A stretch of 64,000 nucleotides of DNA from a virus, in the IMG/VR virus record IMGVR_UViG_3300020193_000013, positions 1 through 64,000 of that record; one strand, written 5' to 3'. Each line of letters begins with the position of its first letter. The stretch's first letter is position 1. Below the pieces are notes generated by a model. The model was not told where the DNA came from and made no database searches. It worked only from the letters and a program-made list of their open reading frames with translations. Positions 48,229-61,395 of this stretch are shown piece after piece. A program made the position numbers and the translations under genes.

Positions 48229-49656
48229 TTAAATATCCTTAATAAATCTATAGTGACCTGTTCCAAATATTTTATGGTAACCTTCTGATCTCATTTGATC
48301 GTCTTTTTTGCCCCAAGATGCCCTTCTTGAAAGCCTAATCTCCTTATCAGTCCAAAACATATCTGGGGGAGTAATGCCGTCCAATTTAAAGCCATTTTTG
48401 ATATAAACTTGACCGTTGCTTATTCTTTTATCTGCATAGGACATGATTGAATTATAACCTAGTTTTTTAAGTTCGACTTGAGAATGTGACATTAGTTTAG
48501 AAAACCCGCCTACAACTGATGCATTTTTAACAGTGCAAAACCTTACCAATTCAACACCATATTTTTTGTTTTTACCAAAAGTTATTAATTGAACTAATTT
48601 GCCGTCTTTTTTAAGACCGATATTTAAAAATGAGCTTCTAAATCCCATTAAGTGATTATCGTTGCAAAAATGTTTAGTTTTTTTAAAGCTAATTTTAATT
48701 ACTTCACAATCTCTTGCGTTGATTTTGTTTTCAGTTATATTAAGCTTGTTAGCTATAATTGAGCATACCAGATCAAATTTAAAATTAATTTCATCTTCAA
48801 AAAACGATATTAATTTGATTTCCTGAGATTCTGCTAATTCATGTTTTTCTTTGTTACTATATTTTTCTTTATTTAATTCGCAATGCCAATATAAACCATC
48901 TATTTCTATTCCAATATTATAGTCTGGTAGATAAATATCTATTTCTAATGGATACCCACCCTTTTTTAAAATTTTTTGATTCCTTTTAAAATTTATGTTT
49001 TTTGATTCTAAAAAATTACATACTTTTTGTTCTATTAAAGGATTGTTTTTATGTTTTGGATGTCGAGTTTGATTAAAAATAACATTATACGGTAACGCTT
49101 CCCATTCGCCAAATTTAGGATCAATAAAAATAGCCCGTGAGTGCATTTTAATATACGTTTCTTTTTTAATTTTTATACCAGTTCCCATAGAATCCAGCCT
49201 AGACTGGATTTCATCTGGATGGATCAATTTATATTTCTTTTTTCTATCGGACAATCTTTTAGGGTGTGGGTACCTACTACTTAAAACATATTCAACTATT
49301 TTTGTAAACTCTCCGTAATCTTTATCTATAAAGGTTGCTGTTTTTTTAGTGCCTAAATACGTACTTTCAATAATTGTTACTTCTGGTGGTAATTTTTTTT
49401 TAATTTCCTCTACAGGAGTTTGCATGCCTCTATAAGATCTATTTGGATGCTTACCACCTTTTAAAAGTCTATTGGGAATTGCCCAAAAATCTCCAAAATC
49501 TTTATCAGTAAAAAGTGCTTTAAATTTCGTATTAACGTAAGTAGATTTATCTACTGAAATAATTTCAGGGTATTTTTCTTGGATTTTTTGAAGAGTTTTT
49601 TCAGATGTCCAAGTTTTTTTCTGAGATATTAAAATTGATTTTTTACTTTTTTCCAT
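48229..49656 (-). CDS. Vsr-like homing endonuclease with repeat array
   Basis: A 475-residue protein. Three N-terminal repeats of about 60 residues share Y-x-x-x-x-x-A-x-F-x-D-x-x-(F/Y)-G-(D/E)-(F/W), ending in H-P-(N/K): at about 46-82, 104-140 and 167-203. They are likely DNA-contacting. The core (about 210-310) has L-E-I-D-I-Y-L-P-D-Y-N-I-G-I-E-I-D-G-L-Y-W, a Vsr/EDxHD-type nuclease signature like I-Bth0305I. The C-terminal third is a separate G-F-R-S-S-F-L-N-I-G-type domain. A free-standing selfish nuclease placed beside the sheath gene. Confidence 0.75.
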   Translation of the reverse strand: MEKSKKSILISQKKTWTSEKTLQKIQEKYPEIISVDKSTYVNTKFKALFTDKDFGDFWAIPNRLLKGGKHPNRSYRGMQTPVEEIKKKLPPEVTIIESTYLGTKKTATFIDKDYGEFTKIVEYVLSSRYPHPKRLSDRKKKYKLIHPDEIQSRLDSMGTGIKIKKETYIKMHSRAIFIDPKFGEWEALPYNVIFNQTRHPKHKNNPLIEQKVCNFLESKNINFKRNQKILKKGGYPLEIDIYLPDYNIGIEIDGLYWHCELNKEKYSNKEKHELAESQEIKLISFFEDEINFKFDLVCSIIANKLNITENKINARDCEVIKISFKKTKHFCNDNHLMGFRSSFLNIGLKKDGKLVQLITFGKNKKYGVELVRFCTVKNASVVGGFSKLMSHSQVELKKLGYNSIMSYADKRISNGQVYIKNGFKLDGITPPDMFWTDKEIRLSRRASWGKKDDQMRSEGYHKIFGTGHYRFIKDI

Positions 49657-52865: not shown

Positions 52866-53687
52866 TTACTTTTTCTTAGTATCAGTACCGCCAGGAACAT
52901 CTTTTTCTTCTGGCATGATATCTGGAGAAAATTTTTCTTTCAATTCTTTTCTAGTGGCGATTCCTTTTTCTTTGCCACGAACTATAGGTTGACCTTCTTT
53001 TGGTGTTTCAACAGAAGGTAAACTAGCTATTTTCTTTTTTTCTTTAAAACTATAAATATCTGCCTTTTCAAAAGTATTTTTAACTAAATTTCTGTAATAG
53101 TTTTCTGATTTAGCAATTTTAGGAATTTTATAAATGAACTTTACTGGCTTTTTAAACTTTTTATTATTGCCATTATCAGAACTTGCCGGAGCTGAAGGTG
53201 GTACAATTTTTGTAGCCAAGCTAGGTTCTACTTGTTCTTTTTCTAATTCTTTTTTCTCATTCGGTTTTTTGCCAGCTTTTCTGCTTTCTGAGCTTCTTAG
53301 CTGAGATTTATCTTCTAAAGATCTTAAATGTGTTAGCATTTCTTCTTTAGAATCAGTGCTTTTATCTTTTAAATCATGAATAGCTTCTTTTACGCTTTCG
53401 CCTTCTTCTGCAACATCATGAGCTTTGTCTTCTGGCGTTCCTGGCAGATGCGGCTTATCATCTTTATCCATTGATTCTTTTTGCATTTTTTCCATGCAAG
53501 CTTTTATTCTTTTGGATAGTTCGTCAATTCTTTTTTTCTTGTCATCTTGGGGTGACATTTCCATTTCAACGTGCTTAGACTCTTCAGAACGAGCTTTAAT
53601 AAGTTCTTGAAATGCTTGAAGTGCTTTAGGGTCGTTTTCTATGGTTTTTAGCAATTCTTTTGCTTGTTCTAATATCGACTTAGACAT
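52866..53687 (-). CDS. Charged cargo/scaffold-like protein with SExYY motif
   Basis: A 273-residue protein made almost entirely of Lys/Glu/Ser/Asp helices, with low-complexity linkers, like scaffold or internal head proteins. Near residues 197-230 it contains A-K-S-E-N-Y-Y-R-N-L-V-K, then A-D-I-Y-S-F and K-I-A-S-L-P. The same order occurs in the next upstream gene product (S-E-x-x-Y-F-x-x-L-A-K, A-K-I-Y-D-F, L-A-D-L-P). So it shares a module with the multidomain cargo protein. No enzymatic domain. CTTAATCT lies 16 nt upstream of its ATG. Confidence 0.6.
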   Translation of the reverse strand: MSKSILEQAKELLKTIENDPKALQAFQELIKARSEESKHVEMEMSPQDDKKKRIDELSKRIKACMEKMQKESMDKDDKPHLPGTPEDKAHDVAEEGESVKEAIHDLKDKSTDSKEEMLTHLRSLEDKSQLRSSESRKAGKKPNEKKELEKEQVEPSLATKIVPPSAPASSDNGNNKKFKKPVKFIYKIPKIAKSENYYRNLVKNTFEKADIYSFKEKKKIASLPSVETPKEGQPIVRGKEKGIATRKELKEKFSPDIMPEEKDVPGGTDTKKK

Positions 53688-53703
53688 AATTACCTCTATA
53701 TAG

Positions 53704-53711
53704 AGATTAAG
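53704..53711 (-). promoter_or_regulatory. CTTAATCT element upstream of 273-aa protein
   Basis: Minus-strand TTACTTAATCTCTATATAGAGG, 16 nt before the ATG at 53687; the downstream TATA-like bases form a small palindrome that includes the ribosome binding site. Confidence 0.4.
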
Positions 53712-53748
53712 TAATTTTACCTATAACATTATTATTTAATAAAATCAA

Positions 53749-56640
53749 CTATTTATTTTCTTTTTTACCAAAGAATCCAGTAATCTTTATAGCTGTGTCT
53801 TTAACGGCTGGCATACCTAAACTATTTTGAAACGATTGAGATACTTGTGAAGCAGGGCTTGTATTGCCTTTTGTACCTCTAGGCTGTTCTTTAAGACTTG
53901 TACCGTTTAAAGATGGTCTGGTTTGACTAGGCGATACTACCGGCATAGTAGTTGCAGTAACACCATCAATCTTTTTAAGCTTTTGTGCAAAATAATGCTT
54001 CAAGTGGTTGCTTTTTTTAAAACTATTAAAAGTCTTTTCAGATGCTGCTAGCTTTGACGTATTTTTGATTTCATTTTTAAATGGACTATCTAAATTAAAT
54101 TCTAACTTACCAGTTTTATCAGAAAACGAATGTGTAACATAACCTTCGTTTGGCCTTGAATGCCTAACTATAATTTCATTTTCACCTGAATAATCGTTAG
54201 AGCTTTTTATTTTTTTACCTTTATGTCTTTCGTATACATTTCCTGCCATTTTAGGGAAATGGTGAATATTATCCTCATGAATCCAAGATCCTAGAATATG
54301 TCCCATTCTTTTATTAGCAAACCTGCTAGCTATTCCTTGGTGTGGCGACCATGAAGTGTTTACGTCTTTTGGATAGTTCATTGATTTATCATCTAATACG
54401 CTATTTTTTTCTGAATCGCTAACGCCCCTGTACAAAAGAAATTCCCTTTTTCCATCTTTAGATCTTCTTACTTTTGTCAACCCTGATAATCTATGTAATG
54501 CCCTATCTCTTAAGTTTCCAGTTAATGGTTTAATTAAACCTCTTGTTGGCGTGTATTGTTTGGTTTGCCATTCATCAATTAACATGGCATTCATTTGGGA
54601 TTCTTTATTTGGATCTGCTGGCATTTTTCTTTGCCTAGATCCCTTTTTTAAATTCTGAAAGTATTTTTCAGATGCGGCTAATGGTATTTTGGTTGTTTTT
54701 TTGTTTGCTTCATCTTGTATTTCTGAAATTTCATCGTCATTGTACCCCTGGGCTTTCTTTTCCTCGATATCAATTTCCCTATCAATTTCCCCCATGGCTT
54801 CTTGATATGTCTGCCTTTTAACTTTTTGTTCTGGCATTTTTGGGTAATTTATATTAACGTTTTTGCCTTGTTCTTTTAAACCAGAAGCTAATTTTCTTTT
54901 TTTAGATACTTCTGAATGATTTTGAGGGTCTTTTATATCTATTTCAATTGTTCCAGGTTCATTAACTTCCATAAATGGTATTTTAGCATGAATTGGGTGA
55001 CCTTCTTCGTTTAAAATTGGATTACCATTTTCATCTTCATAATAATTTTCTTCTTCGTTCCATTTACCAGGTCTTGTATCTTCTATAAAAATCATGTCAA
55101 AGGGGTGAGGTGCGCTTTTTTTATATTCAGGGTCCTTATCTGACAAAGCTTTCCAGGCATCGCTGATATGCTTCCTTCCTTCTTCTATAGAATTAAAAGA
55201 CAATGCTTTATATGGCAATATATTATGCCGGCCATTACCGTCATAAAATAATTGACCTGGGTTATACGTCCCATCTGACAACATACCTCTAGGAGTAACC
55301 GCTATAAATTTTTTAGCTTTTGACAAATTAAAACTTTTAGCTAAAGATTGAAAATAGGTTTCTGTTTTTTTAACTCTATTAACAGCTTTTATATATGGAT
55401 CATTTAAGATTTCGCTATCGGACCTGGTTTTAGCGGCATTAATTCCGTTTCTCCAAGCATATGCAGCTCTATTTTTGTTATTACTAAAAATTTTTAAAAG
55501 CTTTTTATAATGTGAATTTGCTATTTCGTTTTCAATTTCTGGATTTTTATTAATAAAATCAGTTAATTGATCGTGATTCATTGAAACCGTTTGTGGATAT
55601 CTATCAGCTAAGTGCTTATCTTTCTTAACAGTTTCTTTAATAGTTATAGGCATTAACCCTGTAGCCCCTGCTGCAGTGTGGCCAATGTTAACTCCAGTTA
55701 ATACTTTTTTATGATGCTTGTTTCTGCCGTAATTACTTTCTATACCAGAAATATGCACTAAGTCTGGATGAAGCTTTACTTGGCTTTCTTTAGGTTTAAA
55801 GGCTTGTTGTTTTTCTTGAGAAATTGGTGCAGACACCAAAAGACTACCTAAAGCTGCGGTAGCTAATTTAGTTTTAAGGCTTTTTTCTAACAATTCATTA
55901 AAGTAATCTTCAGATTTTTTGGTTTCTGTGCTAGGTGTTGGTAAATCGGCTAAAAGTTTCTTGCTTGAAAAATCATAAATTTTAGCTTTAGCTAATGATT
56001 CAAAATACAAAGTGCCTTCGCTTTTACATGCCCATCTTCTTCTAGCTAAACAAACTCTTTTATCTGGAGTTTTAGAGCAGCTGATATTATGCATTTTCAT
56101 TTGGCCTTTAGATCTAGCACAAAATGATTTTTTACGCTTACCGCCTCCTGGCTGTGGCCTTTTAAGTTTGCTTCCAGTAGCTTTATTATAAGCTTTTCTG
56201 CCTGCTTCTGTTAACCCGCCTTTTTTAGATTTATGCTTAGCTTTAAATTGGAAAGACTTTTTTTTCTTTTCTAAGGATTCGGCGATTAAATCAAAAGTAG
56301 ATTGTGGCACGCTTTCGCCAACTTCTAAGTCAATATTACCATTGTCATAAATAGAAATCTGTAATTCAGATTTGCCCATTGGCTTAGTCAGCTTTGGTAA
56401 TGGCGGCGGCTTTGGGGTTGATTTTGGTTTATGCGGTACAATTCTTATTGCTGGGTCTTTTTCAAGATTTTGTACCTTGCCATAATCTTGTACTATTTGT
56501 TTATAAGTTTTTGGTTTAGTTATAGGCTGGCCTTTGTGATTAATAACATACTTTTGCTCACCTGTGCCGACCTGTGGCGGCATGGATTTATCACGTTGGC
56601 CGCTAGTCAATTTTGATAGTATGTCTTTAAAATACTTCAT
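53749..56640 (-). CDS. Multidomain cargo protein: transglycosylase plus ADP-ribosyltransferase-like
   Basis: 963 residues. In order: a basic Cys-containing domain (about 90-205; K-K-G-G-L-T-E-A-G-R-K-A-Y-N, S-F-C-A-R-S; DUF6321-like in my reading); a lytic transglycosylase-like domain (about 290-400) with E-S-N-Y-G, A-A-G-A-T-G-L-M-P-I and A-Y-A-W-R-N-G; an unknown domain (430-640); and an ADP-ribosyltransferase-like domain (about 700-850) with L-Y-R-G-V (734), T-S-W-S-P (761) and E-N-E-I-I-V (818). SExYF-type motifs occur near 207, 243, 427, 657 and 866, separating the domains. AGGTGA before ATG. Likely packaged in or on the virion; the mosaic order is direct, the role inferred. Confidence 0.7.
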   Translation of the reverse strand: MKYFKDILSKLTSGQRDKSMPPQVGTGEQKYVINHKGQPITKPKTYKQIVQDYGKVQNLEKDPAIRIVPHKPKSTPKPPPLPKLTKPMGKSELQISIYDNGNIDLEVGESVPQSTFDLIAESLEKKKKSFQFKAKHKSKKGGLTEAGRKAYNKATGSKLKRPQPGGGKRKKSFCARSKGQMKMHNISCSKTPDKRVCLARRRWACKSEGTLYFESLAKAKIYDFSSKKLLADLPTPSTETKKSEDYFNELLEKSLKTKLATAALGSLLVSAPISQEKQQAFKPKESQVKLHPDLVHISGIESNYGRNKHHKKVLTGVNIGHTAAGATGLMPITIKETVKKDKHLADRYPQTVSMNHDQLTDFINKNPEIENEIANSHYKKLLKIFSNNKNRAAYAWRNGINAAKTRSDSEILNDPYIKAVNRVKKTETYFQSLAKSFNLSKAKKFIAVTPRGMLSDGTYNPGQLFYDGNGRHNILPYKALSFNSIEEGRKHISDAWKALSDKDPEYKKSAPHPFDMIFIEDTRPGKWNEEENYYEDENGNPILNEEGHPIHAKIPFMEVNEPGTIEIDIKDPQNHSEVSKKRKLASGLKEQGKNVNINYPKMPEQKVKRQTYQEAMGEIDREIDIEEKKAQGYNDDEISEIQDEANKKTTKIPLAASEKYFQNLKKGSRQRKMPADPNKESQMNAMLIDEWQTKQYTPTRGLIKPLTGNLRDRALHRLSGLTKVRRSKDGKREFLLYRGVSDSEKNSVLDDKSMNYPKDVNTSWSPHQGIASRFANKRMGHILGSWIHEDNIHHFPKMAGNVYERHKGKKIKSSNDYSGENEIIVRHSRPNEGYVTHSFSDKTGKLEFNLDSPFKNEIKNTSKLAASEKTFNSFKKSNHLKHYFAQKLKKIDGVTATTMPVVSPSQTRPSLNGTSLKEQPRGTKGNTSPASQVSQSFQNSLGMPAVKDTAIKITGFFGKKENK

Positions 56641-56705: not shown

Positions 56706-57638
56706 TTACTCAGGCTTTTTAGTTAAAAGACCTTCTTTTTGGTATTTTTCTTGCGGCGTTTCAGGCTTTTCATCATGTTGGGATATGATAGATTCAATCT
56801 CAGGGGTCCATTCATTTACTTGGTTTTTACCTTTTAATTTGCCGTATATCATTGCGTGAGCAGCTTCTGAAATACTTCTACCTACCCCAACAGTAATGGT
56901 GTAACCTGTAGCTTCATGATATTTATTTCTTAAATCTTCTATTTCATTTAGATATTTTTTATGTAGGGTAAAAGAAATGTCATCGCCGCCATCAATATAA
57001 ATTGAGCCATGATGTTTTTTAATCCATTTTCTTATTACTTGGTTGCCTCTTTTAATGATTTTATCTTGTTTTTTGATTTCTTTAATATCGTTTGATAATG
57101 CCACACGTTCAACTGAAGCACCAATATTATCACCATCAGTAGCTATATAAACTATATTTTTTTGAGCTTTGGATAAAAGTTTAAAAAGATCTTCAAAACC
57201 TTTAGTTAATACATCTAACTCTGATTTACCGAAATCAAAATTATGAGTAAAATAAAAATCTTTTCCTGTTTGATCTTTAAGATGGGTATAAAAATCCTGG
57301 GGTTTGGCTTCATGAAATACTGTACCTTCACCACTAACCGATGTACCAGCTTTTGGACCATTTAAGTATAGCATTTTATGATTTTTGCCATTTGAATAAA
57401 TTACCGATTCTTGACCTGTATCTCTAGCCAGTTTTATTATATCATTTACATTTTTTGGGTTTGAAACGATAATAGAAGATTCTGGGCTACCGTAATGCCC
57501 TTTAGAATTAATTGCAGTTTCGCCTTGAGTTTTTAACCAATTTAAAGTATTTTCATGGGTTGGTGGCGGTTTAATCCCCTGATGCATGGGGTTTTCTACT
57601 GAAAAAATCAAATGTGGTTGTTGAATTAAATCTTTCAT
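56706..57638 (-). CDS. mCpol/GGDEF-like palm nucleotidyl-cyclase domain protein
   Basis: A 310-residue protein. Residues 1-130 form a DUF3293-like domain (P-P-P-T-H-E-N-T-L-N-W-L, G-Q-E-S-V-I-Y-S). Residues about 155-275 look like a palm-type polymerase/cyclase: Y-I-A-T-D-G-D-N-I-G near 160, Y-I-D-G-G-D-D-I-S-F near 214 and I-T-V-G-V-G-R-S-I-S-E-A-A near 247. The D-x-D and G-G-D-D metal motifs and their spacing match mCpol (minimal CRISPR polymerase) and Cas10/GGDEF relatives, which make cyclic or oligo-nucleotides. ATGA overlap with the next gene. A G-K-S-E helix (about 137) precedes the palm. Confidence 0.65.
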   Translation of the reverse strand: MKDLIQQPHLIFSVENPMHQGIKPPPTHENTLNWLKTQGETAINSKGHYGSPESSIIVSNPKNVNDIIKLARDTGQESVIYSNGKNHKMLYLNGPKAGTSVSGEGTVFHEAKPQDFYTHLKDQTGKDFYFTHNFDFGKSELDVLTKGFEDLFKLLSKAQKNIVYIATDGDNIGASVERVALSNDIKEIKKQDKIIKRGNQVIRKWIKKHHGSIYIDGGDDISFTLHKKYLNEIEDLRNKYHEATGYTITVGVGRSISEAAHAMIYGKLKGKNQVNEWTPEIESIISQHDEKPETPQEKYQKEGLLTKKPE

Positions 57639-60418
57639 GACAGTTTTATTTCTTCATGTATTTGTTTTGGATGAAATATCATGGCTGTGTTTTGAATAAC
57701 TGGATGCGCACTTGGATCTTTTGTAACCACACCATGATATCCAGCATTTTTAACTTTATTGAAAATCTTTTCAAAATTCCAAGCCATGTTATTTTCTTTA
57801 AGGGCTTGTAGCAGAAGTCCGTCTTTATCGCTGTAAAGATCGTACAATTTTTGATGTGGCTCTAATTTAACTGTATATTTTGATTTAGCACCTGATCTAA
57901 CTATGTCTTCTGGGGTATCATTAATATAATAAAAGGTTACATGTGGGTAATTTTTTATTTGGTGCGGTAAAAACCTTTTAGTATGATCACCCTTAACGCC
58001 CATGCCTTCTTTTCTGGGATCTAGTTCTTTTAATCCTGGATGCTTTGAGTAATGATATAAAATAGCTGGCTGTTCTTCAGTTTTGCTTAAATCGTCCATG
58101 AATTTAATTTCAGTATCTCCATCATGCCCATGAACTTCATTAACATCTTTTAATGAATTATAAAAATTAAACGATGGAGTATCTGTCATCCAATTAACTA
58201 AGCATTTACCATCAGGGAACTGGACGCCTACAGCTACAATTCCTGTACCATTGTTCCCCTCATGATCTTCTTTCCTGTTTAAATAAAACCGTTTAAACTT
58301 TTTAAGTTTTGGCTTTCTAGCCTTAAAAAGTATGTCTATATTTACTTCTGACTTTTTGGCCATGAGCCTATTTAAATCTTCTTCGGTAATTTTTTTAGCT
58401 TTTCTGGTCAATTGTTTCCAAGAGGCTTTTAATCTATTGTAATCTATTGGCTGCCAATTTGCAGGATTTTCTTTTTTTAAAGCATTGTGCTCTTGTCTTT
58501 GTATTTTATTCGTCAGTAAATCTCTTGTATGCGTTAAAATTTCTTCATTGATTTCATTTTCAGGTAAATCTTTATATGAAGGTTTTGATCTAACAAATTT
58601 TTCAATAGCTTCTCTTTCATTAGGATGCAGATGTACATTTAATAAATGATCTACCAATCTATTTTTAGTATCTTCGCCGTATTTAGCTCGTAAAATATTT
58701 AATAAATGATGGGCAGCTTCATGCTCTTGAACAACATGAGCTTTGCCTGCTTTAAAGGCTTCTGGTTTTATGTACGGTTGACTAAAATCATCCTTATAGG
58801 CTTCAGTATAACCTCGGGTTATAAAAGTTCCTTCTGGGGTAACCTTAATATCAGACTGACCGCTAACCGCTGATTCAGCGGCTTTTCTTTGTGATTCTCT
58901 ATGTTTTGGAGTAGCTTCTTTAGCCCGAGGTTGTGCCATTAAAATCTTATTGGCTGTTTTTTTATTTTCTAGCGTTTGTCTAGAAATGATTCTAGGTCCG
59001 CCTGCCATGGCTTCAATTGCTTTATCTTCTTCAGTTATAGAAGGTACTTCGAGAGGTTCGTCAGAAATAAACTTAACGTCCTGCTCTGGTCTAGTAGGTA
59101 GCTTTTTAAGCCCTTTAAATCTTAAAGCTGGTTGAGACATTTTAATTAACTCTTCTTTAGCTAAACTTACGATTTCATTAACGTATTTATATATTTCTTT
59201 TGATAATCCAGTATTACTATGATTGTTTTGAATTTCAATAGTTTGCGGTAATACTAAATCACCAAACTCTATTTTAAAGTCTGCCTTAGCTACTTGCAAA
59301 TTATTTTTATCTTTAACTTCAACTTTAATTAAATTATCTATAACATTGTGGAAAAATTGATAAATTTCTATGTTTTTAAATTCTGATTTGTTAGTTTCAT
59401 TTAAATTGCTTGGATCGTAACCAAATTCATGAATAGAATTGGAATCGGTATACACATGCTTAGCTGGAACTACTTTGCTTACTATTTTGTACTTGTTACC
59501 AAGATTAGCCTGACCATGCTCTTTTGCATACTTTCTATTTAAAGTAACCCAATCACCAGGATTGATATTAAGTTTTTTTGCCGGTTGATCTGGTAATGTT
59601 TTTAATTTTTCATACTCATCGCTTATTTGATTGTAATAGTTAGATCTATCACTGGCATTAACGCCTTTAGGTATTTTTCCAGTTTTTAAAATATAAGCTT
59701 TATGGCTCTCTATTTCAGCCATTCTCTCTTTAGGTAATTGCTTATGCGGAACAGCTCTATAAATTCTGACCATTTTATTCGGTTTATCTTTAACGCCATG
59801 CAAATGATTAATAGATTCTTGATCGTATGGTACACCATGACCGTAGTATTTAGCAGCGTTTGAGCCGTAAATATCATCTGGATATATATCTTTTAAATTA
59901 TGAATAGGTTTTGAAAAGCCGTCATTTTTTGGAGCTTCGTGTTCACCTTTGTAGTCTTCTTCAGCTTTTTTGATTTCGGGTTTTTTAAGTTCACCTTTTA
60001 AATAAGTGACTACTATGTTTTCACCGTTAGGCTGGTATAGGTCGTCGTGCTCTAATGGATTAATAAATTTTAACTCTTTAAATTCTTCATCTTTGTCGCC
60101 AGTAAAATCCATACTCTCGTGATGGTATGGTTTTTTACAAACAAACAAATGAACAGTTAAATTTTTATCTTCTTGAGTATTGTAATGCTCTGCTCCGATA
60201 TGCTCTAAATCATTTAGGTTTAATTCTAATCCAGTTTCTTCTTTAGTTTCTCTAACTGCAGCATCTTTTAAAGATTCTTCATTATGTACGTGTCCACCTG
60301 GAATGCTCCATTCATTAGTGTCTTTTCTTTTGCCGTGTAAAATAAGATCTGGAAATTCGCTATGTCTAATGACAACGGCAGAAGCTACTGGTGGTTTTTT
60401 GTCTTTTGGATCACCCAT
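57635..60418 (-). CDS. Nudix-ART-metallopeptidase multidomain protein
   Basis: The start at 60418 (MGDPKDKKPP) is preferred to TTG 60457, which lies within the upstream gene. 927 residues. Nudix domain at about 8-100 with G-G-H-V-H-N-E-E-S-L-K-D-A-A-V-R-E-T-K-E. ART-like region at about 215-337 (I-Y-R-A-V-P, P-G-D-W-V-T-L-N-R-K-Y-A, H-E-F-G-Y). A Q-E-H-E-A-A-H-H metallopeptidase motif near 564. A domain with V-N-E-V-H-G-H-D-G-D-T near 760. A C-terminal ART-like domain (787-927; L-Y-H-Y-S, A-G-Y-H-G-V-V). Nudix enzymes cleave NAD, Ap4A or ADP-ribose and could pair with ARTs. Catalytic state untested. Confidence 0.7.
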   Translation of the reverse strand: MGDPKDKKPPVASAVVIRHSEFPDLILHGKRKDTNEWSIPGGHVHNEESLKDAAVRETKEETGLELNLNDLEHIGAEHYNTQEDKNLTVHLFVCKKPYHHESMDFTGDKDEEFKELKFINPLEHDDLYQPNGENIVVTYLKGELKKPEIKKAEEDYKGEHEAPKNDGFSKPIHNLKDIYPDDIYGSNAAKYYGHGVPYDQESINHLHGVKDKPNKMVRIYRAVPHKQLPKERMAEIESHKAYILKTGKIPKGVNASDRSNYYNQISDEYEKLKTLPDQPAKKLNINPGDWVTLNRKYAKEHGQANLGNKYKIVSKVVPAKHVYTDSNSIHEFGYDPSNLNETNKSEFKNIEIYQFFHNVIDNLIKVEVKDKNNLQVAKADFKIEFGDLVLPQTIEIQNNHSNTGLSKEIYKYVNEIVSLAKEELIKMSQPALRFKGLKKLPTRPEQDVKFISDEPLEVPSITEEDKAIEAMAGGPRIISRQTLENKKTANKILMAQPRAKEATPKHRESQRKAAESAVSGQSDIKVTPEGTFITRGYTEAYKDDFSQPYIKPEAFKAGKAHVVQEHEAAHHLLNILRAKYGEDTKNRLVDHLLNVHLHPNEREAIEKFVRSKPSYKDLPENEINEEILTHTRDLLTNKIQRQEHNALKKENPANWQPIDYNRLKASWKQLTRKAKKITEEDLNRLMAKKSEVNIDILFKARKPKLKKFKRFYLNRKEDHEGNNGTGIVAVGVQFPDGKCLVNWMTDTPSFNFYNSLKDVNEVHGHDGDTEIKFMDDLSKTEEQPAILYHYSKHPGLKELDPRKEGMGVKGDHTKRFLPHQIKNYPHVTFYYINDTPEDIVRSGAKSKYTVKLEPHQKLYDLYSDKDGLLLQALKENNMAWNFEKIFNKVKNAGYHGVVTKDPSAHPVIQNTAMIFHPKQIHEEIKLS

Positions 60419-60432
60419 TTTAATACCAATTA

Positions 60433-61395
60433 TTACTCGTCGTCTTCCATTTCCCAAGTTGGTGAATAATCTTTGGGGTTTGCTCCTGGTGGTGTTTTAG
60501 GGCCATCTGCAATTCTAATAACGCCACGCACATCTTGGAGTTTTGGTGCGGCATATTTAATAAAGTTAATCTCTACTTGACCTGATAAAACTATATTTCT
60601 ACTAAAAATGCGGTCAGTCTCTTTAAAATTTGGATTTAAATACATTGCATCTGATTGCATAGTACTTAATTCAAACCCTCTGCCTTCAAAGTAAACTTCT
60701 TTACATCTTAGTAGAATGTACCATATTGTATCATGAAGCCATTGATTTTGCACTGGATCTGATTGCGTGTGTACACCTATATAAACAGTTTCACTTACAA
60801 AGGTTACTTCTCTTTGCAAATTCCATACTGACACTGGTGGAACAACATAAGCATCGGTAAAATCTTCATTTACATTTTCTTTGATTCTAAATTGAGTATT
60901 TCCAACAATTTCGAGTATTTGATAAGCTTTACCAGTCCTAGAAGATACTAAAAATTGACCTACTACAGCATATTCTGTAGTAATTCCGCTAGGAAAGGTC
61001 ACTATACCGTTTTCTTTATTGTATTCTGAAGGGGTGAAGTTTTCGTAAACTTTAATAGGATTTATTGAAACTTTTTCAGTACTTATGTCTTCTGGTCCGC
61101 CCAATGTATCGCCTAAAGCAGTTCTAGGCAATAATTCTACCCTTGGTGAGCTTGTTATGGTAATACAAGGCATTTCGGGTGAATCTATCCTAAAATCTAA
61201 GTAAACTGGAATTTTATTGGTTAAAAACCATTGTTTATAGGCGTGTATCTCTTTATAACCGTATTCGGTTTTAGAAAGTGTGTCTGTAGCTAGTCCAGCT
61301 ATCACGTCATCTAGGATGAAATTATTCTTTCTGAGGTCATTTAAACCAGCTTCAAGGGCTGTTTTGACTAATATATCTGTAGGTATAATGGCCAT
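60433..61395 (-). CDS. Neck/tail-terminator-like structural protein
   Basis: A 320-residue protein with an early helix (V-K-T-A-L-E-A-G-L-N-D-L-R), beta-rich central part, and a late W-Y-I-L-L-R-C-K-E-V-Y-F-E-G-R-G-F-E-L segment. The helix plus strand pattern L-R-x-K-E-V-Y-F-x-x-R-G-F-x-L-S-T and F-S-R-N-I-V-L-S-G-Q-V resembles tail-completion or neck proteins of large myophages. Acidic C-terminus (W-E-M-E-D-D-E). It follows another neck-type gene, 20 bp downstream. CTTAATCT lies 7 nt before its ATG. Confidence 0.55.
   Translation of the reverse strand: MAIIPTDILVKTALEAGLNDLRKNNFILDDVIAGLATDTLSKTEYGYKEIHAYKQWFLTNKIPVYLDFRIDSPEMPCITITSSPRVELLPRTALGDTLGGPEDISTEKVSINPIKVYENFTPSEYNKENGIVTFPSGITTEYAVVGQFLVSSRTGKAYQILEIVGNTQFRIKENVNEDFTDAYVVPPVSVWNLQREVTFVSETVYIGVHTQSDPVQNQWLHDTIWYILLRCKEVYFEGRGFELSTMQSDAMYLNPNFKETDRIFSRNIVLSGQVEINFIKYAAPKLQDVRGVIRIADGPKTPPGANPKDYSPTWEMEDDE

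Follow-up and report, generated by a model that had tools for sequence, protein, structure and literature searches.

The assemblin-like prohead proteases of phages T4 (gp21), phiKZ (gp175) and SPN3US (gp245) recognise short linear sites, on head proteins as well as on internal ones. T4 gp21 cuts the scaffold gp22 into many pieces at L/I-x-E, and the sites in phiKZ and SPN3US are S/A/G-x-E and A-x-E (PMC9026906, PMC5694885, PMC10052503). The T4 proteins Alt and IPI-III, which include an ADP-ribosyltransferase (ART), are packaged, processed and ejected (PMC9026906). According to PMC5512222, polyvalent proteins are phage proteins that combine several domains, including ART, lysozyme and further effectors; they are late-gene products presumed to be injected, a few of them contain assemblin-like peptidases, and their processing is attributed mainly to built-in metallopeptidase domains, with no cleavage code given in the passages considered. 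Here, we compare with these systems a short motif, with the core Phi-x-K-S-E (Phi denotes a hydrophobic residue), that recurs in the cargo genes of the virus record IMGVR_UViG_3300020193_000013 (IMG/VR) and in the head genes of its relatives. The window denotes the whole stretch of 64,000 nucleotides that was analysed, bases 1-64000 of this 70,943-base (70.9 kb) record. From sequence comparison, we consider it very probable that the phage's prohead protease, probably an assemblin-like enzyme, recognises this motif as its site.

Open reading frames (ORFs) are mechanical calls and the records are mostly metagenomic. The closest relative is G001 (IMGVR_UViG_3300032319_001025), a 144-kb contig whose cargo proteins have 65-83% identity, and whose tail sheath has 87% identity, to those of the window phage. 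The nearest cultured relative found was Myxococcus phage Mx1, which shares the order portal, protease, cyclase, capsid, Nudix, sheath. A capsid alignment search found the same head type in 65 viral contigs and in one contig binned with a bacterial genome. Parts of the 963-aa cargo protein of the window were matched in 17 of 30 related records, and scans of viral contigs with this protein and with a Nudix protein encoded nearby returned the widespread DUF6321 tail or G001 and nothing else. Motif statistics were obtained on three discovery clusters (window phage, G001 and Mx1) and then on 63 further related head-gene loci.

The system resembles those of T4, phiKZ and SPN3US in having a probably assemblin-like protease and putative short linear sites, both in head proteins and in internal ones, and differs from them in that Lys and Ser are fixed too. 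The reported SPN3US sites remove N-terminal propeptides, except for the C-terminal one of the protease itself, whereas the sites described here lie between enzyme modules of one chain. T4 Alt and IPI-III, which the cargo would resemble in being packaged, processed and ejected, come from separate genes with an N-terminal targeting peptide and are not multi-enzyme chains. Like polyvalent proteins, the cargo proteins join several effector or enzyme domains in one late-gene phage protein, and their genes adjoin the sheath gene. Metallopeptidase models had no match in any window protein.

Conservation of the motif in head genes

KSE was the top over-represented tripeptide in the head and cargo clusters of the window phage, G001 and Mx1 (42 copies against 12.1 expected, in a ranking made after removal of tandem-repeat proteins), and elsewhere in the three genomes it fell below expectation (8 against 27.1). 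It was again the top tripeptide in the 63 other head loci, well ahead of the next, with 414 copies against 113 expected, a count in which homologous copies inflate the absolute p-value. The core conserved in these loci consists of the five residues Phi-x-K-S-E, with Phi mostly L or M, and it reappears in loci whose GC contents span 31-70%. Looser forms, Phi-x-[KA]-[ST]-E, are seen in the window phage and G001. Position scans returned M or L at Phi, K as the strongest position (7.5-fold), S at 5.1-fold with A next, and E at 7-fold; KAE, KTE, KNE, KSD and KSQ were weaker variants. The strict form was counted 306 times, where shuffles gave about 25, and the 94,298 residues lying outside the clusters held only 3 copies. 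In 78% of 259 nonredundant contexts L, M, I, V or F stood two residues before K, against 11-17% in anagram controls. No other flanking position was strongly constrained, and the logo of the 259 sites was flat downstream.

S-E at the start of a helix is a normal capping sequence, and an ordinary helix N-cap or charged linker might be frequent in these proteins because they are K/E-rich. The acidic character of the proteins in scaffold position and the presence of KSD in place of KSE at some homologous positions would agree with this. We nevertheless consider such an origin very improbable, since composition shuffles and anagram controls fail to reproduce the motif, a hydrophobic residue two before K is no capping feature, and the downstream positions are without helix pattern.

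The gene lying immediately upstream of the capsid gene, regarded as the scaffold gene because of synteny with SPO1 gp3.1-3.2-3.3-6.1 (portal-protease-scaffold-capsid), held 182 strict copies where 3.8 were expected (anagrams, 0-2), and at least one copy was present in this gene in 88% of 57 loci. The encoded acidic proteins carry many closely spaced copies. Strict copies numbered 96 in the other genes of the loci, where 17.4 were expected, and 28 in the three discovery clusters, where 3.5 were expected. The portal proteins of G001 and Mx1 carry the motif, and in the G001 protease it lies in the linker after the catalytic domain. The E of the Mx1 sites is residue 49 or 641 in the portal, 198 or 237 in the scaffold, and 610 or 1255 in a 1479-aa cargo protein. 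As expected of prohead-protease substrates in general, one phage has the same short motif in scaffold, protease, portal and internal proteins (G001, Mx1 and the 63 loci), its capsid protein having only the related Phi-x-K-[AT]. Copies that are numerous in the scaffold and recur in protease and portal and at cargo borders form, by analogy, the same kind of pattern as in T4, phiKZ and SPN3US.

The G001 protease matches PHROG 1028 'head maturation protease' (E=1.8e-9), and H40, H93 and S118 are invariant among 14 protease sequences. The top PDB matches of an AlphaFold model of the protease were herpesvirus proteases, with T4 gp21 fourth, at weak E-values of 3e-3 to 0.2; a PDB sequence search with the protease module gave no match. 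The prohead protease is C-terminally fused to a polyprotein of 1,100-1,440 aa in L126, L136, L139, L140, L143, L146, L148, L158, L162, L166 and Mx1 (L082:5419-9138). Several of the fused polyproteins have Phi-x-K-[STA]-E at the junction behind the protease domain. The protease also holds a copy of about 35 residues of the capsid N-terminus, K.[LM][ET]AGN.NAAPS.L..GSAL, in which K is invariant (L089:13761-14663; L082:5419-9138).

A motif that is common to scaffold-position and cargo proteins could also serve in docking or capsid targeting: as a short linear motif it would bind cargo and scaffold to each other or to the shell and stay uncut. Five residues are long enough to dock, and in T4 a targeting sequence of 10 residues serves the internal proteins (PMC9026906). 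However, copies in the scaffold are many and closely spaced, those in cargo stand between modules and not once per chain, copies follow the protease domain in the fused polyproteins, and the deposited capsid chain of Staphylococcus phage 812 starts at the homologous site. We therefore regard docking without cutting as improbable, and recognition by the prohead protease remains our preferred explanation.

Motif copies at the module borders of the cargo proteins

The cargo genes and motif copies of the window that are given here are on the minus strand. The 963-aa cargo polyprotein (ORF 53749..56640) consists of an N-terminal segment, DUF6321, an LT-like module, a region of unknown type, an ART-like module and a C-terminal tail. 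The first-pass annotation had reported S-E or T-E followed by a Y/F-rich amphipathic helix at five places in this protein and at one in its 273-aa neighbour, a protein rich in charged residues (ORF 52866..53687), and all six were found again. They are AC-KSE ACKSEGTLYFESLAK (residues 206-208; 56017..56025) directly after DUF6321, TK-KSE TKKSEDYFNELLEKS (242-244; 55909..55917) at the start and VK-KTE VKKTETYFQSLAKS (425-427; 55360..55368) at the end of the LT-like module, LA-ASE LAASEKYFQNLKK (656-658; 54667..54675) at the start and LA-ASE LAASEKTFNSFKKS (866-868; 54037..54045) at the end of the ART-like module, and, in the 273-aa protein, IA-KSE IAKSENYYRNLVK (193-195; 53103..53111). At the place equivalent to residues 656-658, G001 has I-N-K-S-D. 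A helix-free sixth copy in the 963-aa protein, MG-KSE (residues 90-92; 56365..56373), marks the point where the homology of the first 92 residues to a 383-aa G001 protein ends. The recurrence is non-random, as a regular expression of the annotated pattern gave 4 copies in the 963-aa protein against 0.003 expected from composition shuffles, the copy at residue 242 being just outside the expression. Applied to all ORFs of the record, it gave 5 copies, all within the 963-aa and 273-aa proteins, for which the chance expectation together is about 0.004.

The looser K-S-E copies annotated in the mCpol and Nudix proteins are likewise real. In the 310-aa protein (56706..57638), FG-KSE (residues 138-140; 57219..57227) stands between a SAM-lyase-like module (1-140) and an mCpol module (141-310). 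The 940-aa Nudix polyprotein (57635..60457) carries IK-KAE (residues 164-166; 59960..59968), where G001 has an ART-like module, TN-KSE (357-359; 59381..59389), AK-KSE (702-704; 58346..58354) and LS-KTE (792-794; 58076..58084).

The placement of copies at domain boundaries was borne out by comparison with G001. DUF6321 ends at residues 203-205 of the 963-aa protein and adjoins the first annotated copy, and homology to G001 breaks at or near residues 92, 208, 242, 655-673 and 868. Modules are re-assorted among the G001 proteins and homology breaks at the motif, for example just behind FDFGKSE and INKTE. In the 310-aa protein, residues 1-140 have their counterpart in one G001 protein, with homology as far as an identical FDFGKSE, and residues 140-308 (mCpol) match a different one directly after INKTE, so that the halves are split exactly at this copy. 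In the Nudix protein, homology to an 865-aa G001 protein ends at LSKTE and homology to a 1233-aa one begins. Breakpoints lay at most 12 aa from the motif in 14 of 25 cases against 3.3 expected (0 of 5000 permutations), in a test that can count each event on both sides. Across relatives, the motif was present in 19 of 25 inter-module gaps against 5.0 expected, with modules partly defined by motif positions, and was missing from 6. Since modules begin and end at the site, we propose that they would be exchangeable between proteins as cassettes.

Linkers recur and modules are shuffled, and the copies might accordingly be mere footprints of cassette shuffling, left by homologous recombination in short repeated linkers, with no processing role. 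But the enrichment extends to scaffold-position genes, which do not belong to the shuffled cargo, and the motif recurs over the whole GC range given above. We would give this explanation almost no weight next to recognition by a protease.

The Y/F helix is restricted to the window phage and G001, and Mx1 sites often have prolines there. The expectation that the motif is kept in related phages therefore held for the K-S-E core and failed for the helix, which is no part of the conserved motif; as a general capsid-targeting element the helix was not upheld either, its residues being unconserved in Mx1 and the wider family. A T4-type N-terminal capsid-targeting sequence was rejected as well, since the copies lie inside the chains, frequently more than one in each, and relatives do not conserve the helix. 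The annotation had proposed protease sites and/or targeting helices that split a polyprotein. From this alternative the position at cargo-module borders stands, as very probably does the prohead-protease site in view of the copies in scaffold, protease and portal, and the targeting helix does not. The Y/F peptide (K-S-E-x-Y-F-x-x-L-x-K-S) between two Phi-x-K-[small] sites could still be a module-targeting helix that is later excised, which would add to protease processing and be no alternative to it. About 10 residues past the first K, the helix of the window phage and of G001 usually closes with Phi-x-K-[SANTG], which would bracket a decapeptide, and two G001 proteins end with the helix. As the pattern is absent from Mx1 and the wider family and the targeting is putative, we consider this unlikely; the helix may have its own lineage-specific role in the window phage and G001.

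Position of the proposed cut and points against the protease reading

Herelleviridae heads (SPO1, Staphylococcus phage 812) are alike in having a homologous capsid protein, the same gene order, Phi-x-K-S repeats in the scaffold and a K-[SA] site in the capsid protein, and differ at the position that follows S, which is usually occupied by V, I, L, A or Q and at some SPO1 sites by E. Phi-x-K-S is repeated in the scaffold-position proteins of phage 812 (L225:3366-4316) and SPO1 (L222:5186-5920). This sequence similarity suggests that the protease code extends to Herelleviridae. No published cleavage site for Mx1 or Herelleviridae was found in the openly accessible literature.

We lean slightly towards a cut between K and S. 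In the kayvirus phage 812 the deposited capsid chain (9row) comprises residues 25-463 and starts at S25 after V-V-K24, although this start is the deposited sequence and not a stated experiment, may reflect the depositors' assignment, and trypsin cuts after Lys. The start aligns with the K-[AT] capsid site of G001, and the scaffold-position protein of phage 812 has seven Phi-x-K-S where 1.7 Phi-x-K-[SAT] are expected. A cut after E is a more tentative option, favoured by homology breaks just behind E, by the LAASE copies without K, and by the characterised T4, phiKZ and SPN3US enzymes, which cut after E (PMC9026906, PMC5694885, PMC10052503). The phiKZ/SPN3US site itself (S/A/G-x-E, cut after E), which the first-pass annotation had invoked as S/A-x-E, was rejected because K, at the place equivalent to P3, is strict when each position is allowed to vary. 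K, S and E are all fixed with a hydrophobic residue two before K, only LAASE fits A-x-E, and the phage 812 capsid points to the K-S bond.

Several points speak against recognition by the prohead protease, in addition to the limits given with the border statistics and the phage 812 chain and to the six gaps that lack the motif. The capsid protein is without K-S-E and has instead an N-terminal L-x-K-[AT]-[LM]-[ET], in 58 of 58 sequences. The copies LAASE, TKKSE, ACKSE and VKKTE of the window phage are off the strict form; LAASE lacks the K that is otherwise strict and agrees with A-x-E. The capsid genes are absent from the record of the window phage and present in G001, so that its protease and scaffold are known from relatives alone. 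We found no virion proteomics for the window phage, Mx1 or close relatives.

Cargo modules and their proposed processing in the head

Module identities were obtained from profile, sequence and structure matches. The mCpol module of the 310-aa protein (PF18182, E=2.4e-19; also NF033576), at 56709-57218 on the minus strand, also matches the PADLOC defence model CARF_HEPN_mCpol; it is phage-encoded and within a virion gene cluster. The SAM-lyase-like N-terminal module of the same protein (57219-57638, minus strand) has a weak, sub-threshold match to PF23780 (22 bits, cut-off 28), and a packaged SAM lyase would be anti-restriction. The Nudix domain of the 940-aa protein (PF00293, E=1.2e-14) and DUF6321 of the 963-aa protein (E=1.4e-17) are Pfam matches. 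DUF6321 (56026-56364, minus strand) is a basic Cys-containing tail with about 400 matching viral-contig stretches, and occurs in cyanophages. The LT/lysozyme-like module of the 963-aa protein has a sub-threshold SLT match and matches an Mx1 'NUDIX hydrolase' protein (32%); LT-like matches in G012 and G008 (L170, L177) cross in-frame stops (TGA, TAG, TAA). The ART-like module has conserved R, S-W and E positions, and its label is tentative because of a mean pLDDT of 59.5 and weak ART-fold matches. PDB sequence searches with the LT and ART modules gave no match. G001 has two additional GNAT modules.

Two large proteins with tandem NPNLHPE(L/A)QTKLAQSQ repeats are encoded just upstream of the cargo genes (L001:5842-10883; 65841-70942 of the window phage's record, G000). 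A 475-aa protein (48229-49656, minus strand) that adjoins the sheath gene has weak Vsr/PvuRts1I-like nuclease matches and a close G001 copy, and is possibly a homing endonuclease.

We infer that the motif would be cut, that the prohead protease would be the enzyme, and that the cargo would be packaged. The cargo polyproteins would be co-assembled with the scaffold into the prohead. At maturation, the protease would cut the scaffold at its many site copies, allowing it to leave, and would cut the same site where it separates folded modules of the cargo. The enzymes so released (lysozyme-like, ART-like, Nudix, mCpol and possibly SAM lyase) would remain in the head and pass into the host together with the DNA. 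In the broader proposal, which we hold to have an even chance of being right, Mx1-like phages use a prohead protease of new specificity (hydrophobic-x-Lys-Ser-Glu, cut between Lys and Ser) as a polyprotein-processing enzyme, and any enzyme may be added to the packaged precursor via a five-residue cassette border and freed inside the head. Because such a border lets enzymes be added and freed, the whole injected arsenal would be readable from sequence by its cut tags. If this is true, it would give a new site type for head-maturation proteases and would explain how large multi-enzyme phage proteins are split without a built-in protease. It would also provide a readable code for the proteins and domains that these phages pack and inject, and would predict virion effectors in dozens of uncultured relatives, with the cultured Mx1 offering direct testability.

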